This document shows positions 1,313-5,899 of a DNA stretch of 5,910 nt, one piece after another. A program made the position numbers and the translations under genes. The first letter of the stretch is position 1; each line of letters begins with the position of its first letter. Under the pieces are notes generated by a model that worked only from the letters and a program-made list of their open reading frames with translations, was not told where the DNA came from and searched no databases. This DNA is from an uncultured Ruminococcus sp. (lineage in GTDB: Bacteria > Bacillota > Clostridia > Oscillospirales > Ruminococcaceae), in NCBI GenBank assembly GCA_900554975.1, contig USJI01000079.1, forward strand, positions 1 to 5,910, given 5' to 3'.

Positions 1313-1588
1313 TTATCCCATATTTGAAAATCTTTCAACCGCTTTAGTGAAACTTTCTATCGTCTTATCAGCATCGCCATGCTCTATGCCATCACGGACA
1401 CAATGCTTTATATGTCCTTCAAGAACAACCTTTCCGCAGCCATGAAGTGCAGATTTTGCGGCATTTATCTGTGCCAGAACATCTTCACACGGAACATCTT
1501 CATCAACCATTCTGTCAATTGCCTGAACCTGACCTATAATTTTTTTCAGTCTTCTGTGCAGATTTTCAGCATCCATACATTGTTTCAT
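1313..1588 (-). CDS. csoR: CsoR-family metal-sensing transcriptional repressor (DUF156)
   Basis: This 91-residue all-helical repressor has the usual family length. The N-terminal helix reads LHRRLKKIIGQVQAIDRM, the family signature. The metal site is Cys34, His59 and Cys63 (VPCEDVL and GHIKHCV), with exactly the C-25-H-4-C spacing of Cu(I)-binding CsoR. The sulfur sensor CstR lacks the His and the nickel sensor RcnR uses other ligands, so a Cu(I)-like thiophilic metal is the best guess. Cys4 and Cys51 are extra cysteines. In the family, metal binding releases the tetramer from G-tract operators and switches on an exporter. Two such boxes lie just downstream, before the broken ATPase. The start is set by GGAGG at 1596-1600, 7 nt before ATG. 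Its own promoter (1626-1654) shows no G-tract box by eye. The symbol is by family and the true metal is untested. Confidence 0.92.
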   Translation of the reverse strand: MKQCMDAENLHRRLKKIIGQVQAIDRMVDEDVPCEDVLAQINAAKSALHGCGKVVLEGHIKHCVRDGIEHGDADKTIESFTKAVERFSNMG

Positions 1589-1727: not shown

Positions 1728-3797
1728 TTATTTTTTTATGAGTTTAGTCATGCTTTTAGCTGATATCAACATGGTAGATGTATTATGTAAAAGAGCAGAT
1801 GTTGCAGGAGAAATTATTCCGGCAACGCCTGAAACAATTAGTCCGGCATTAAATCCGACAATAAAATGATAGTTTCCGCTGATACGCTTCATAAGCTCCA
1901 TACTAAGTTTTCTCAGTGTCACAAGGTTTGCAATATCATCTTCACAGAGAGATATATCCGCAACTTCCCTTGCAATGTCAGAACCTCCGCACATCGCAAC
2001 AGATACATCTGCCGCTGCAAGTGCCGGTGTATCATTAACGCCGTCACCGACCATGATAACCTTATGACCCTGCTCCTGAAGTTCCTTGACAAATGAACTC
2101 TTGTCTTCCGGAAGAACCTGTGATCGGTGCATATCAAGTCCCAGACTCTCTGAAACTCGTTTTGCAGCAGCTTCGCTGTCACCTGTAAGCATACATATAT
2201 GTCCTATTCCAAGCTTACGCAGATCATGGATAATAGTTTTTGCATTATCTCTTACAGGATCATCAATAAGAAGCATTCCTGCAAGAACACCGCCTATTGC
2301 CAAGAAGATAGCTGAATTTCCGTCAGCACGTTCTTCTATCAGCTGTTTCTGCTCATCTGAAAGCGGAACATTTTCATCTTCAAAAACAAAATGTCCGGAA
2401 CCGATTATAGCACGCTTTCCATTATAATCTGTAGCGATTCCATGTGCCACAAGATACTCTACCTTTGCGTGTTCTTCTTCATGCAGAAGTCCTTCTTCCC
2501 TAGCCTTATTGACTACTGCCGCCGCAACGCTATGTGGAAAATGTTCTTCAAGGCAAGCGGCTGTTCTCAGCACATAATCACGTTCAAACCCGTTGAATGC
2601 GATAACATCTGTAACTTCCGGATTTGCATTTGTAAGCGTTCCGGTTTTATCAAATACAATAGCATCCGCTTCTGAAAGTATCTCAAGATACTTTCCGCCC
2701 TTTACAAGTGCTCCGGTTTCAGCGGCTTCTCTCATAGCTGAAATAACCGAAACCGGTGTGGAAAGTTTTATAGCACATGAAAAGTCAACCATAAGAACAC
2801 AAAGTGCCCGGCGAAGACTGCCTGTAAGTGCCAGAGCAAGGAAAAATGCAGGAAAACTGTATGGAACAATAGCGTCTGCAAGATGCTCTGCACGGCTCTG
2901 AATTCCGGCTTTGAGATTTTCCGATTCATCAATGAGTCCGATTATCTTTTGCAGACGTGAACCGTCAGAAAGACTGCGTACACAAACGGTAATCTCACCC
3001 ATTTCAACGGTAGTTCCGGCAAATACACTGTCGCCGTCTTTTTTGTGAACCGGCTGTGATTCACCAGTCATTGTTGCCTGATTTACCATTGCCTCACTGT
3101 CGCAGACTGTTCCGTCAAACGGAATAACATTTCCCGCACGAACAACAACTTTATCTCCGACCTGTACTTCAGAAAACGGAACTTTAATTTCTGTACCATT
3201 ATCCGAAAGCCATACATAATCTATATTAAGTGCGAGCTGCTCTGAAAGTGCAAGCTTTGTTCTTTCTCTTGTATAATCCTCAAGAAGCTCGGAAATCTGA
3301 AGCAGGAACATTACAGATGATGCAGACTTAAAGTTTCTCTGTACAAGAGATATTCCGATAGATGTCGCATCAAGTACAGATACATTCATGTTGCATTGCA
3401 GCAGGCTGTCAAGCCCCTTTAGCACATACTTTGCACCCTTGTAAATAGTCATGGCATATCTTATCGGCGCCGGCACAAATCTCATAAGAAATTTTACTGC
3501 AACAGCTTTTTCAAGGCTTTTATAAAATTTCTGATCAGCCCTGACGATAGGTGACACTTCTTTTTCCTTTATGTCACATACCTTCAGATTTTTAAGATAA
3601 TCCACAATTTTACTTCTGCCGCCCTTTGTATATTCCACAAGAATACTTCCGGTCTTGTAGTTCACTTTACAAAGTGTTACACAATCCAAAGCCGAAACAG
3701 CTGATTCAAGACCACATGCCTGCTCAGGTGAAAGAAGATATTCTCTGCATCTTACTCTGAGACGGGTATATTTGTCATAAGCAATTTCAAATTTCAA
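1728..3797 (-). CDS. P1B-type heavy-metal-exporting ATPase with atypical FSC membrane motif
   Basis: This is a 689-residue inner-membrane metal pump. Order: a ferredoxin-like HMA-type N-domain (about 1-75, RLRVRCREY and SILVEY) with no CxxC; membrane helices between about 100 and 175; actuator domain with TGES (244-247); helix pair about 305-355 with the metal-site motif DFSCAIKLSTP (338-348); phosphorylation loop with DKTGT and Asp383; N-domain; TGD (538-540); GDGVND (584-589); two final helices (about 640-685). The ATPase core is complete. Oddities: FSC replaces CPC, with Lys344 where Gly is usual, and the nucleotide-site HP pair is His422-Ser423. These set it apart from CopA/ZntA, so the metal cannot be assigned; CtpC-like Zn/Mn exporters are one comparison. 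It starts with TTG, 2 nt after the stop of the small membrane-protein gene, with no good ribosome site of its own, so translation is probably coupled. A terminator follows. Confidence 0.93.
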   Translation of the reverse strand: MKFEIAYDKYTRLRVRCREYLLSPEQACGLESAVSALDCVTLCKVNYKTGSILVEYTKGGRSKIVDYLKNLKVCDIKEKEVSPIVRADQKFYKSLEKAVAVKFLMRFVPAPIRYAMTIYKGAKYVLKGLDSLLQCNMNVSVLDATSIGISLVQRNFKSASSVMFLLQISELLEDYTRERTKLALSEQLALNIDYVWLSDNGTEIKVPFSEVQVGDKVVVRAGNVIPFDGTVCDSEAMVNQATMTGESQPVHKKDGDSVFAGTTVEMGEITVCVRSLSDGSRLQKIIGLIDESENLKAGIQSRAEHLADAIVPYSFPAFFLALALTGSLRRALCVLMVDFSCAIKLSTPVSVISAMREAAETGALVKGGKYLEILSEADAIVFDKTGTLTNANPEVTDVIAFNGFERDYVLRTAACLEEHFPHSVAAAVVNKAREEGLLHEEEHAKVEYLVAHGIATDYNGKRAIIGSGHFVFEDENVPLSDEQKQLIEERADGNSAIFLAIGGVLAGMLLIDDPVRDNAKTIIHDLRKLGIGHICMLTGDSEAAAKRVSESLGLDMHRSQVLPEDKSSFVKELQEQGHKVIMVGDGVNDTPALAAADVSVAMCGGSDIAREVADISLCEDDIANLVTLRKLSMELMKRISGNYHFIVGFNAGLIVSGVAGIISPATSALLHNTSTMLISAKSMTKLIKK

Positions 3798-3799
3798 TT

Positions 3800-4051
3800 T
3801 TATTCATCTGCCTTGCTTGAAGCTTCTTCAGCTGATTCTGCTGATTTTTCATCATATCTTATATCTTCTGCATCTTCCTTTATCTTTGAAAGTGATGCGG
3901 AAGCATCATCACGAAGTTTCATTCCGCTTGCAACAGTCTTTACACAGCCATCATGGAATGTCTTGCTCTTGAGGAACTTAACTCCTGCTGTAGCTACAAC
4001 TACGCCCAAAGCAAAAAATCCGGCTTTTTCATTTTTGATAAACTTCAACAT
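3800..4051 (-). CDS. Small one-helix membrane protein (DUF6110-like), putative ATPase partner
   Basis: The 83-residue protein starts at the ATG at 4051, which has AGAGG at 4061-4065, 9 nt upstream; an in-frame TTG further upstream (4075) overlaps no such site. Layout: short basic N-terminus, one Gly/Ala/Val-rich membrane helix (about 11-27, FFALGVVVATAGVKFL), then a long charged, probably helical cytosolic tail rich in Ala, Glu and Lys. HDGC (33-36) next to the membrane could bind metal. The GVxxATAGVKxLxSK pattern recalls the DUF6110 family by memory; not checked. Its stop is 2 nt before the ATPase start. Size, topology and gene order match mycobacterial PacL proteins (DUF1490), single-helix partners of the metal ATPases CtpC, CtpG and CtpV. 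A scaffold or chaperone role for the pump is inferred from this. The acidic C-terminus has no His-rich metal motif. Confidence 0.82.
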   Translation of the reverse strand: MLKFIKNEKAGFFALGVVVATAGVKFLKSKTFHDGCVKTVASGMKLRDDASASLSKIKEDAEDIRYDEKSAESAEEASSKADE

Positions 4052-4178: not shown

Positions 4179-4442
4179 TTATTTTCCGAATAATTTTGAA
4201 AAAAAGCCCTCTTTTTTCTCATATGGTTCAGATCTGACTCCAAGAAGCTTATAGCCTGTCGGTTCAATAACGCTTCTGATTTTATCCTCCGGAATATTGC
4301 TTTCGGAAATAATAACTGTTTCACCTTTGCTATGGGACGATGTCACTTTTTTCACATTCAGTTCCCGGCGGATCGCATCATTTATATGACTTTCACACAT
4401 TGAACAAGCCATTCCGTCAATTGAAAGTATAATTTTAAACAT
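4179..4442 (-). CDS. HMA-domain metal chaperone (CopZ-like)
   Basis: This 87-residue cytosolic protein is one heavy-metal-associated (ferredoxin-like) domain plus a tail. The metal-binding loop is DGMACSMC, with Cys13 and Cys16 as the CxxC ligands, followed by the usual helix (ESHINDAIRREL) and a hydrophobic strand with ETVIIS. After the domain core (GYKLLG near 70) comes a short extension ending GFFSKLFGK, which looks amphipathic and basic and could touch the membrane. Proteins of this kind carry Cu(I) or another soft ion to a P-type ATPase. It probably serves the ATPase encoded next, whose own N-domain lacks CxxC. The start is ATG 4440-4442, with a full AGGAGG at 4453-4458 (10-nt spacer); a longer frame beginning upstream would read through this site. 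It has its own consensus promoter with a possible operator. The metal is not known. Confidence 0.92.
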   Translation of the reverse strand: MFKIILSIDGMACSMCESHINDAIRRELNVKKVTSSHSKGETVIISESNIPEDKIRSVIEPTGYKLLGVRSEPYEKKEGFFSKLFGK

Positions 4443-4476: not shown

Positions 4477-4492
4477 GTCAGCATGTGCTAAC
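4477..4492. promoter_or_regulatory. Possible operator at the HMA chaperone promoter
   Basis: GTCAGCATGTGCTAAC is an inverted repeat with 7-nt arms, one mismatch and a 2-nt centre. It lies immediately downstream of the -10, over the expected start site, a typical repressor position. It has no G-tract, so it does not look like the CsoR boxes at 1214-1256. The regulator is unknown. Confidence 0.45.
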
Positions 4493-4499
4493 CAGTTAC

Positions 4500-4528
4500 A
4501 TTATAACTCTGCATAATCCATTTGTCAA
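4500..4528 (-). promoter_or_regulatory. Sigma-A promoter of the HMA chaperone gene
   Basis: On the - strand TTGACA (4523-4528) and TATAAT (4500-4505), both perfect, are 17 nt apart. The start would be near 4493, giving a leader of about 50 nt. Such a strong promoter usually needs a repressor, which fits the inverted repeat at 4477-4492. Confidence 0.88.
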
Positions 4529-4573: not shown

Positions 4574-4750
4574 TTGAAATATAAAAATTTAAAGGAACTG
4601 ATCTGTTCGAGCAGTTCCTCCAGAAATTATCTTTTATCTTTACCTCTTCCTGTTCAGATAAGACTGCATGAACAGGATAAATTTATCCACACTCAGTTTG
4701 AACTGAGAAAAAATGCAGAACACATTTTAAAATATGATTATGACATCTGA
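4574..4750 (+). CDS. Small hypothetical protein (58 residues)
   Basis: An open frame from TTG at 4574 to TGA at 4748-4750 has GAGGTGG (4563-4569) well placed upstream. The product is MKYKNLKELI, then a serine run SSSSS, RNYLLSLPLPVQIRLHEQ, and FIHTQFELRKNAEH. It looks like a small soluble helical protein. The S(S/A)R.Y..SLP..VQ..LHE pattern resembles small uncharacterised clostridial proteins, from memory and unchecked. No function is known to me. Its last 13 bp overlap the end of convergent pnuC. No clear promoter is seen; the TAATAT at 4553-4558 lacks a matching -35. The gene contains several perfect inverted repeats, so an RNA role is the alternative to a protein. Confidence 0.6.
   Translation: MKYKNLKELICSSSSSRNYLLSLPLPVQIRLHEQDKFIHTQFELRKNAEHILKYDYDI
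4594..4707. repeat. Cluster of four short perfect inverted repeats
   Basis: Within the small ORF are GGAACTG/CAGTTCC (4594-4600 and 4612-4618), CCTGTTCA/TGAACAGG (4649-4656 and 4669-4676), the palindrome GGATAAATTTATCC (4675-4688), and CTCAGTT/AACTGAG (4692-4698 and 4701-4707). The second and third share two bases, so they exclude each other in part. They could fold on either strand: as hairpins in the small-ORF mRNA, or in the 3' end of the pnuC transcript. Confidence 0.7.
4708..4728 (-). terminator. Possible weak terminator of pnuC
   Basis: On the - strand AAAATG (4723-4728) pairs with CATTTT (4710-4715) across a 7-nt loop, followed by further T. It begins 9 nt after the pnuC stop. The stem is short and AT-rich; the stronger hairpin CTCAGTT/AACTGAG follows at once and may help. 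Confidence 0.4.
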
Positions 4751-5448
4751 GCATTCACTGCCTGACGCTTTTTCATTTTCGACCAGCTTACAAATCCGTA
4801 AATATCGTTTGCAAGGAAAATCACAAAGCAGATTGTTACAGAAAGATATGATATATCAGATATAGTTGCAAGTCCCCAGAGAATTATCAGTATAACATCA
4901 TTTGCCGCATATGCAACAGCATAAAATTCATTTCTTCTGAATGTCAGATAAACAGCAAGAAAGCTTGTGGTTACTGAAATTGTACTCGGAACAAGGTTAG
5001 CCGTATCAAACGCTTTAAGGATAAAATAGAACAATACCGTTACTGCGACAGCAGCGACCGACATAAGAATGACTTCCGTTTTTCCTATCGTATTTACCTT
5101 TACTTCTGTTTTTTCATTGCTGTATGGATTCCTGAGCCATGAAATAAGTGCGAAAACAGCCATAGGACCTGTCATTCCAAGATATGTTATCATTTCGCCG
5201 TAATATGCAAATGAGTAGGAAATTATTCCGTAAAGAATGCTGAAAAATATTGCAAAAAATGGTCCGAGAGGATTTCCCTTTGCGCTGAATATCAGCGATG
5301 TTGCACCAATAAGCGAAGCCGCAAGTGACAGATAATTTCCGCTGCGGTCAAGCACGAAAAAAGAAAACACAATAGTAAAAACAGATATTCCCCAGAGCAG
5401 AAGTTCTCCCTTCGTAAAATTTCCGAATAATTTTCTTATTCTGTTCAT
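4738..5448 (-). CDS. pnuC: PnuC-family nicotinamide riboside/NMN transporter
   Basis: This 236-residue inner-membrane protein has about seven hydrophobic segments. PnuC proteins move nicotinamide riboside (or related pyridine precursors) into the cell by facilitated diffusion, for NAD salvage after phosphorylation. Family features are the long polar-edged helices around NPLGPFFAIFFSILYG (59-74), YGEMITYLGMTGP (83-95) with SWLRNPY (103-109), NDVILIILW (183-191) and the C-terminal NDIYGFVSW (214-222), matching the conserved G..W end. Related carriers for riboflavin (PnuX) and thiamine (PnuT) share the fold, so the substrate is probable rather than proven. The start is the ATG at 5448, with AAAGGAG at 5455-5461. 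It is transcribed alone behind a structured leader that contains a strong terminator. The 3' end overlaps a convergent small ORF by 13 bp. The coding region appears intact. Confidence 0.92.
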   Translation of the reverse strand: MNRIRKLFGNFTKGELLLWGISVFTIVFSFFVLDRSGNYLSLAASLIGATSLIFSAKGNPLGPFFAIFFSILYGIISYSFAYYGEMITYLGMTGPMAVFALISWLRNPYSNEKTEVKVNTIGKTEVILMSVAAVAVTVLFYFILKAFDTANLVPSTISVTTSFLAVYLTFRRNEFYAVAYAANDVILIILWGLATISDISYLSVTICFVIFLANDIYGFVSWSKMKKRQAVNAQMS

Positions 5449-5653: not shown

Positions 5654-5899
5654 TTATTTATTACAGTTTTTCTTTTTCCTTTTCCTTCTGATTCTGCTTT
5701 GGAGAAGCATTGCTCCTGCTCCCATAACGGCTATGCCCATACCGATAAGAACTGTACTCTTTTTAAGTTTTTTTGCAGGTTTCTTTTCAATGGTATCATT
5801 TATAACTGCACTGATTTTTTCCTTATCAATAATATGCGGAGCAAGGACTGTTTCCGCATAATTGAATTCAAGATTTCCTGAAAGAACAATAAGTTTCAT
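5654..5899 (-). CDS. Unrecognised protein with single C-terminal membrane helix, possibly incomplete at its start
   Basis: From ATG 5897-5899 the frame gives 81 residues ending at TAA 5654-5656. The first 45 residues are polar and mixed alpha/beta in look (MKLIVLSGNLEF, then VLAPHIIDKEKI). A lysine-rich linker KKPAKKLKKS leads into one membrane helix (about 49-67, VLIGMGIAVMGAGAMLL), and the protein ends with a very basic tail (RIRRKRKKKNCNK). Such an end suggests a tail-anchored protein with a cytosolic N-part, or a stop-transfer anchor. No ribosome site is visible in the 11 bases before the ATG, and the frame stays open to the window edge, so the true start may lie outside. I recognise no family. 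No clear terminator separates it from the pnuC promoter. Confidence 0.55.
   Translation of the reverse strand: MKLIVLSGNLEFNYAETVLAPHIIDKEKISAVINDTIEKKPAKKLKKSTVLIGMGIAVMGAGAMLLQSRIRRKRKKKNCNK

Follow-up and report, generated by a model that had tools for sequence, protein, structure and literature searches.

A 5,910-nucleotide (nt) stretch of contig USJI01000079.1 from an uncultured Ruminococcus sp. (GCA_900554975.1), hereafter the window, carries on its minus strand a gene for a small one-helix protein of the DUF6110 family, followed directly by a gene for a heavy-metal P-type ATPase and preceded by a gene for an HMA protein (Table 1). The small-protein frame opens with an ATG at 4051 and closes with a TAA, and the junction has the minus-strand sequence GCA GAT GAA TAA aa TTG AAA TTT. 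Translated from the TTG, the ATPase aligned with position 1 of the ATG-started ATPases of the relatives L001-L006 (57.6-65.5% identity), and the TTG is therefore the likely start. The nearest protein relative (98%) derives from an Oscillospiraceae MAG. The gene arrangement reported in a first-pass annotation of this DNA, an 83-residue one-helix protein stopping 2 nt before a TTG-started P-type ATPase, was thus confirmed by the sequence, the frames and the alignment.

Table 1. Positions of the pair, its motifs and the associated features in the window.
Feature	Position	Strand	Basis
CsoR/RicR-type metal-sensing repressor; nearest metal regulator in the window	1313-1588	minus	PF02583 E 3.1e-26
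P1B6-type heavy-metal P-type ATPase, 689 aa, TTG start	1728..3797	minus	TIGR01525 E 3.5e-143; TM4 DFSCAIKL and LLHN
LLHN motif near the C-terminus, ATPase residues 669-672	1782..1793	minus	sequence
TM4 metal-site segment DFSCAIKL, ATPase residues 338-345	2763..2786	minus	sequence
Arginine-rich RLRVR motif, ATPase residues 12-16; GRxRxR-like start common to many partners	3750..3764	minus	sequence, partner comparison
2-nt gap, TAA stop (3802-3800) to TTG start (3797-3795); possible translational coupling	3798..3799	minus	sequence
83-aa DUF6110 (PacL-like) protein; N-terminal predicted membrane helix and long charged helix	3800..4051	minus	PF19605 E 1.6e-9, 38.2 bits; AlphaFold2
HDGC, residues 33-36, candidate metal site of the first-pass annotation	3944..3955	minus	sequence; not kept in family
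Predicted membrane helix, residues 10-27; K9 just before, small residues G16, A20 and G23 inside	3971..4024	minus	hydropathy, column counts, AlphaFold2
87-aa HMA (heavy-metal-associated) protein, CSMC site; leads the unit, may feed metal	4179..4442	minus	PF00403 E 1.1e-6
Imperfect inverted repeat GTTAGCAcaTGCTGAC, just past the -10 box, before the HMA gene; candidate operator	4477..4492	minus	sequence
Sigma-70 consensus promoter TTGACA-17-TATAAT before the HMA gene	4500..4528	minus	12/12 consensus positions

Pairing of the two genes was examined in 41 DUF6110 loci (the window, L001-L006, L013-L019, L021 and L049-L074). In 39 of these (the window and 38 of the 40 others), the next gene downstream, on the same strand, encodes the ATPase; the exceptions are L015 and L053. 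Both DUF6110 matches on Deinococcus plasmids were likewise followed by an ATPase gene. Homologues of the small protein are therefore not found mostly away from ATPase genes. DUF6110 was present in all 28 genomes examined from one family and on six Ruminococcus contigs, in 28 of 391 genomes of the class sample (23 above the Pfam cut-off) and in nine of 398 genomes of the phylum sample (six above it). One of these nine, L020, was spurious and was excluded from the counts, as it is a 289-residue frame that matched only model positions 33-82, below the cut-off, and has no ATPase. A broader set comprised 1932 DUF6110 relatives. Two DUF6110 genes, L085 (G073:C7) and L083 (G773:C20), had no P1B6-like ATPase in the 14-20 kb around them; the second copy in G073 does have one.

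The spacing between the two genes ranged from -20 to 200 nt (median 17, 39 pairs), and the 2-nt gap of the window is thus a local detail. In the 18 nt preceding the TTG (CAAGGCAGATGAATAAAA) a well-spaced Shine-Dalgarno site was not apparent by eye, although several relatives do show one. Coupled translation, as first annotated, is therefore a fair inference for this genome, whereas tight coupling as a trait of the family was rejected. These observations bear on the possibility that the small protein is a mere stabilising accessory helix of the ATPase, supplied in matched amounts through coupled translation and without any role in clustering. The 2-nt junction, the TTG start, the weak ribosome site and the pairing in 39 of 41 loci would all fit such a role, but the junction spacing is not kept, and the G073 and G773 copies without such an ATPase in the 14-20 kb read suggest that the small protein can act apart. 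We regard this explanation as improbable.

An HN motif in the sixth transmembrane segment is the mark of P1B6 ATPases, according to the accessible text of Boudehen et al. (2022, PMC9374683). The window ATPase carries a late HN motif and a non-CPC site in the fourth transmembrane segment (TM4). Each of the 23 full-length Firmicute partner ATPases that we compared had D[FY][SC]CA[LIM]K[LM] in TM4 together with an HN close to its end, and most partners also have a GRxRxR-like N-terminal stretch. The nearest solved ATPase structures are of the CopA and ZntA types. In a tree of 29 rows, midpoint-rooted for drawing only, the window ATPase grouped with its Ruminococcus relatives (support 100/100), and G803 with G492 (87/58), G360 (99/96) and G340 (93/81) joined next with weaker support. 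Outside the subclades of the window and of Clostridioides lay the Azospirillum, Arcobacter and Vibrio pumps, followed by those of Priestia and the Rhodococcus PacL partner. The ATPase of L084 ends with its contig.

The first-pass annotation had proposed that the pair is an independent Firmicute version of the mycobacterial PacL arrangement, and had called for profile searches of the 83-residue protein against DUF6110 and DUF1490. The protein matched Pfam DUF6110 (PF19605) at 38.2 bits, against a curated cut-off of 26, and gave no match to the DUF1490 (PF07371) profile at E 1. The two families are nevertheless related: the accessible text of PMC9374683 describes DUF6110 as a relative of DUF1490 (PacL), found mainly in Firmicutes, for which no metal-binding motif is predicted and whose genes typically accompany those of P1B6 ATPases, and that of a second paper (EMBO J 2026, PMC13043812) terms DUF6110 proteins PacL-like and raises effluxosome-like assemblies. 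Within the literature searched, no other paper named DUF6110. In our own comparison, the DUF1490 protein (PF07371 E 6e-37) that a Rhodococcus plasmid encodes directly before its own ATPase (L109) matched a 50-member DUF6110 profile with an hhalign probability of 73.8 (E 2.9e-5). Of two additional DUF6110 proteins scanned, one matched DUF1490 at E 0.0091, which does not reach the Pfam cut-off. A search for DUF1490 in 21 genomes of the phylum gave no match, but the control was likewise silent, so that this result is uninformative. In view of the profile match and the published kinship, an independent Firmicute origin was rejected and the small protein is a PacL relative, not a separate invention; the remainder of the proposal, a PacL-like protein tied to a metal ATPase, held. 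This central idea is already published (PMC9374683, PMC13043812), and the window pair is an ordinary member of the published family.

The small protein has a single hydrophobic segment, with residues 11-27 as the best 17-residue window. AlphaFold2 placed helices at residues 5-27 and 30-81 with low confidence (mean pLDDT 64.9), and the model was used for helix limits only; a structure search found no solved structures for DUF6110, and no relatives were found on viral contigs. Four positions in or beside the membrane helix are conserved in the 50-member alignment: K9 (44/50), G16 (49/50), G/A/S20 (49/50) and G23 (48/50). According to the accessible text of PMC13043812, functional PacL clusters require the conserved K9, G17 and G20, and the cytoplasmic portion of PacL stabilises its contact with the pump. 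The conserved DUF6110 positions may correspond to these PacL residues, the exact register between the families not being proven. The HDGC beside the membrane, earlier taken for a candidate metal site, did not survive as a family motif, since H33 and the HxxC pattern were present in 11 of 17 close relatives and in none of the 33 other members. A cysteine is present somewhere in residues 33-42 of 41 of the 50 members, and this membrane-proximal cysteine may have a role.

A kinship with PacL would suggest a PacL-type efflux platform, in which the small protein clusters the ATPase in plasma-membrane patches that export toxic zinc, cadmium or copper. The HMA protein that leads the unit, the adjoining csoR-type gene and the charged tail of the window protein (7 A, 7 E and 7 S in 36 residues), which resembles the E/A repeats of PacL, are consistent with this. 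However, the Rhodococcus DUF1490 protein ends in GHGHDHAH and its partner ATPase has CPC in TM4, whereas the window protein has no C-terminal His-rich metal motif, its last 36 residues containing neither H nor C, and its ATPase has FSC. None of the 50 DUF6110 members had two or more His in the last 20 residues, while 16 had at least two Cys in the last 30. The iron genes enriched around the family (see below) also argue against an efflux platform, which we consider unlikely. The first-pass annotation had favoured this reading; the genes around the family and its Clostridioides orthologues favour a role in iron handling, probably storage of the ferrosome type, over zinc or cadmium efflux.

We compared the window with further known systems. 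The published DUF6110/P1B6 pairs (PMC9374683, PMC13043812) share with it the Pfam family, the size, the N-terminal membrane helix, the position directly before a P1B6 ATPase and the mainly Firmicute distribution, and there was no difference in kind apart from the HMA gene in front. Pairs of the PacL1-CtpC type (DUF1490, Actinobacteria), including the Rhodococcus plasmid pair, are similar in that a small helix protein lies directly before a P1B ATPase with HN, in addition to the similarity at profile level. On Azospirillum, Arcobacter and Vibrio plasmids, a protein with a glycine-rich helix and an amphipathic helix is encoded directly before a P1B6-like ATPase with DYSCALKL and HN. These small proteins are annotated YtxH in Azospirillum and Arcobacter, and the unannotated Vibrio record was read by eye; the two annotated ones were scanned and had no DUF6110 match, with a weak profile similarity (probability 23.9) for Arcobacter. 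On a Priestia megaterium plasmid (L110, 3126-6076), the P1B6-like ATPase is preceded by an HMA_2 protein (E 4.5e-18) and not by DUF6110. A shorter protein, similar by eye, lies before the HMA_2 protein, and a GRxR motif is present in all three.

A likely functional precedent came from Clostridioides, where DUF6110 had exactly one match in six of eight genomes. The protein of L060 (G719) is 100% identical to P0152 from an unclassified Clostridioides, and in that genome no ATPase other than the one after it matched the window ATPase strongly (634 bits, the next being 267 and 213). In G809 (4.2 Mb), the minus strand carries the DUF6110 gene at C1:713,899, with a product that equals P0168 (C. difficile) at 128 of 131 positions. 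The ATPase starts within 260 nt after the DUF6110 gene in five of the six genomes; in L116 it was not reached. The accessible text of PMC11651100 gives fezAB as CD630_05910-05920, and that of PMC6311696 lists CD630_05910 as an ATPase and CD630_05920 as a hypothetical protein with a Fur box (Table 1 of that paper), both being increased when iron is low and when fur is mutated, with protein log2 changes of 5.2-7.5. FezB is described as an ATPase transporter (PMC12199438, accessible text), and the published accounts, as far as accessible, report that C. difficile fezAB is iron-repressed and needed for ferrosomes, which are iron-storage vesicles. Judged from position and annotation, the simplest reading is that the Clostridioides DUF6110-ATPase pair is likely fezAB. 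Like the window, the inferred FezA-FezB (CD630_05920/CD630_05910) then combines DUF6110 with a downstream P1B6-type ATPase that carries DFSCA..KL, HN and an arginine-rich N-terminus, and a TTG start of the ATPase is common to the window and the Clostridioides pairs. FezB is reportedly of P1B6 type with an arginine-rich start. The Clostridioides protein is 131-132 aa long with a long C-terminal tail that the window protein lacks, and the window differs further in having an HMA gene and no Fur-like box, and in the subclade of its ATPase.

Iron genes were then counted within 5 kb of DUF6110 in 41 loci from 40 genomes, the window not being counted. The distance was first 5.4 kb, chosen after the data had been seen; the recount at 5 kb returned the same 10 and 13 loci given below, with FeoA alone in nine loci instead of 10. 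FeoA or FeoB was found in at least 10 of the 41 loci (G246, G391, G426, G538, G675, G697, G716, G749, G750 and G803), two of these genomes (G391 and G426) representing one family, and the FeoB neighbours being drawn from the strong end of the score-sorted matches listed. FeoA alone accounted for nine loci, against 0.45 expected from FeoA density (Poisson P 1.5e-9, with loci treated as independent). A ferritin gene lay directly upstream of DUF6110 in G650 and G808, a weaker ferritin-type match, rubrerythrin by eye, was present 2.3 kb from the G246 locus, and a DtxR-type regulator lay within 2.6 kb in G246, G549 and G716. Taken together, Feo, ferritin or DtxR occurred in at least 13 of 41 loci. 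This iron link of the DUF6110-ATPase family is the new element here, relative to the published kinship with PacL. Nearest the window the signal is thin, with FeoA directly before the pair in G803 and DtxR in G549. In L088 (G808) and L090 (G650), where ferritin directly precedes the DUF6110-ATPase pair, a ZnuA-like ABC set lies behind it on the other strand (by eye), together with a Fur-like regulator in L088 (by eye); these loci would hold two iron-storage routes side by side.

The upstream stretches of 23 loci were scanned for Fur-like boxes using the consensus TGATAATNATTATCA and a shuffle control. A near-perfect box (1 mismatch, 0/300 shuffles) was found in L051 and in no other stretch. In five of six Clostridioides genomes, TGATATAAATTATCA, with 2 mismatches, lay 266-398 nt upstream (shuffle P 0.01-0.04). 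G809 had no box better than 4 mismatches (P 0.82), though the literature marks the C. difficile gene with one.

Taken with the fezAB precedent, these data lead us to hold, with slightly better than even confidence, that the conserved pair of DUF6110 protein and P1B6-type ATPase is likely an iron module of the FezA-FezB type. In view of the iron setting and the likeness to fezAB, the ATPase would transport ferrous iron, most likely through the membrane of a storage vesicle inside the cell (ferrosome). By analogy with PacL, the one-helix protein may cluster the pump and hold it in place, possibly through the small-residue helix face formed by G16, A20 and G23. The HMA protein may deliver metal to the pump, and the 2-nt junction may couple translation of the two proteins. 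For the window organism, both iron as the metal and the vesicle rather than the cell membrane as the site are what we infer from these comparisons. The same pair could instead be a plain iron exporter, acting on the same metal at the cell membrane to relieve excess ferrous iron without a vesicle. The iron neighbourhood is compatible with this, as ferritin and Feo neighbours fit storage or detoxification alike. However, C. difficile fezAB is needed for the vesicle and is switched on by low iron, so that storage fits better than export, and we consider the exporter distinctly unlikely.

Several observations weigh against a FezA-FezB-type iron module in the window. None of the tested iron genes lay within 5 kb in 28 of the 41 loci among the matches listed, and Feo, ferritin and DtxR were absent within this distance from all six of the closest relatives of the window (G001-G006), again among the matches listed and with some contigs ending early. 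No Fur-like box was found before the window operon, the best site having 5 mismatches of 14, in a weak scan that likewise missed a box before the C. difficile-like gene of G809. The metal of the window pair is therefore unproven, and a regulator other than Fur is possible for its operon. The nearest metal regulator in the window is of the CsoR family, which is mostly linked to copper, and a CxxC site of the HMA kind favours soft metals. In the ATPase tree, the Clostridioides ATPases fell in a neighbouring subclade with those of the Feo-linked G675 and G697 (support 98/94), and the iron reading is therefore extended to the window from the wider family and not from a sister. Finally, two of the eight Clostridioides genomes had no DUF6110 match, and position, annotation and uniqueness, rather than a stated accession, are the grounds for equating FezA with DUF6110.

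A wider proposition, which we judge to be evenly balanced, is that PacL and FezA belong to one family (DUF1490/DUF6110) in which bacteria use a small-helix scaffold and a P1B6-type pump to build efflux patches in some cases and iron-storage organelles in others, and that a minimal ferrosome kit, HMA-FezA-FezB, is present in Ruminococcus-like bacteria of the gut. The terms 'ferrosome', 'FezA' and 'FezB' are absent from the accessible text of the PacL papers PMC9374683 and PMC13043812, and no paper joining PacL with ferrosomes was found within the literature searched, where the two words met in a single review, on ferroptosis in breast cancer, and where PMC9374683 was the one paper to bring P1B6 ATPases together with iron. 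If FezA is indeed a relative of PacL, knowledge of the PacL helix residues and of pump holding would provide a testable model of ferrosome building, and DUF6110 would flag those gut anaerobes that are likely to make ferrosomes.

The HMA gene is a less constant companion of the pair. In upstream stretches of up to 1.2 kb, as far as each locus reached, a true HMA-like gene was present in four of 41 loci (the window, L006, L051 and L052), a fifth match, in L021, being dropped as a chance frame. In L051 and L052, which belong to the Feo-linked genomes G697 and G675, the HMA-like gene is fused to a Cys-rich membrane piece. A sequence resembling the inverted repeat GTTAGCAcaTGCTGAC of the window, GTTAGCTGACGCTAA, lies upstream in L002 and is a possible regulator site. 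No Rfam RNA motif reached the gathering score in the window.

The csoR-type gene has its own promoter-like site at 1654-1626 (11/12 consensus) and probably belongs to a broken ATPase gene rather than to the DUF6110 pair. As regulator of the pair it had no support, CsoR being found near DUF6110 in 0 of 41 loci; this count is weak evidence, indeed uninformative, because only 0.23 were expected. Behind it on the minus strand, at 650-1202, is the remnant of a second metal ATPase, with the early membrane segments in one frame (weak TIGR01512 match) and a late segment with VHNAGS (by eye) in another. The middle part is absent and the two segments lie in different frames, which suggests either a pseudogene with an internal deletion or a join made during assembly. 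The window also encodes, on the minus strand, an 81-aa protein (5654-5899) with one hydrophobic segment, a basic tail and no family match above cut-off, and a PnuC-type transporter (4738-5448; TIGR01528 E 2.4e-18).

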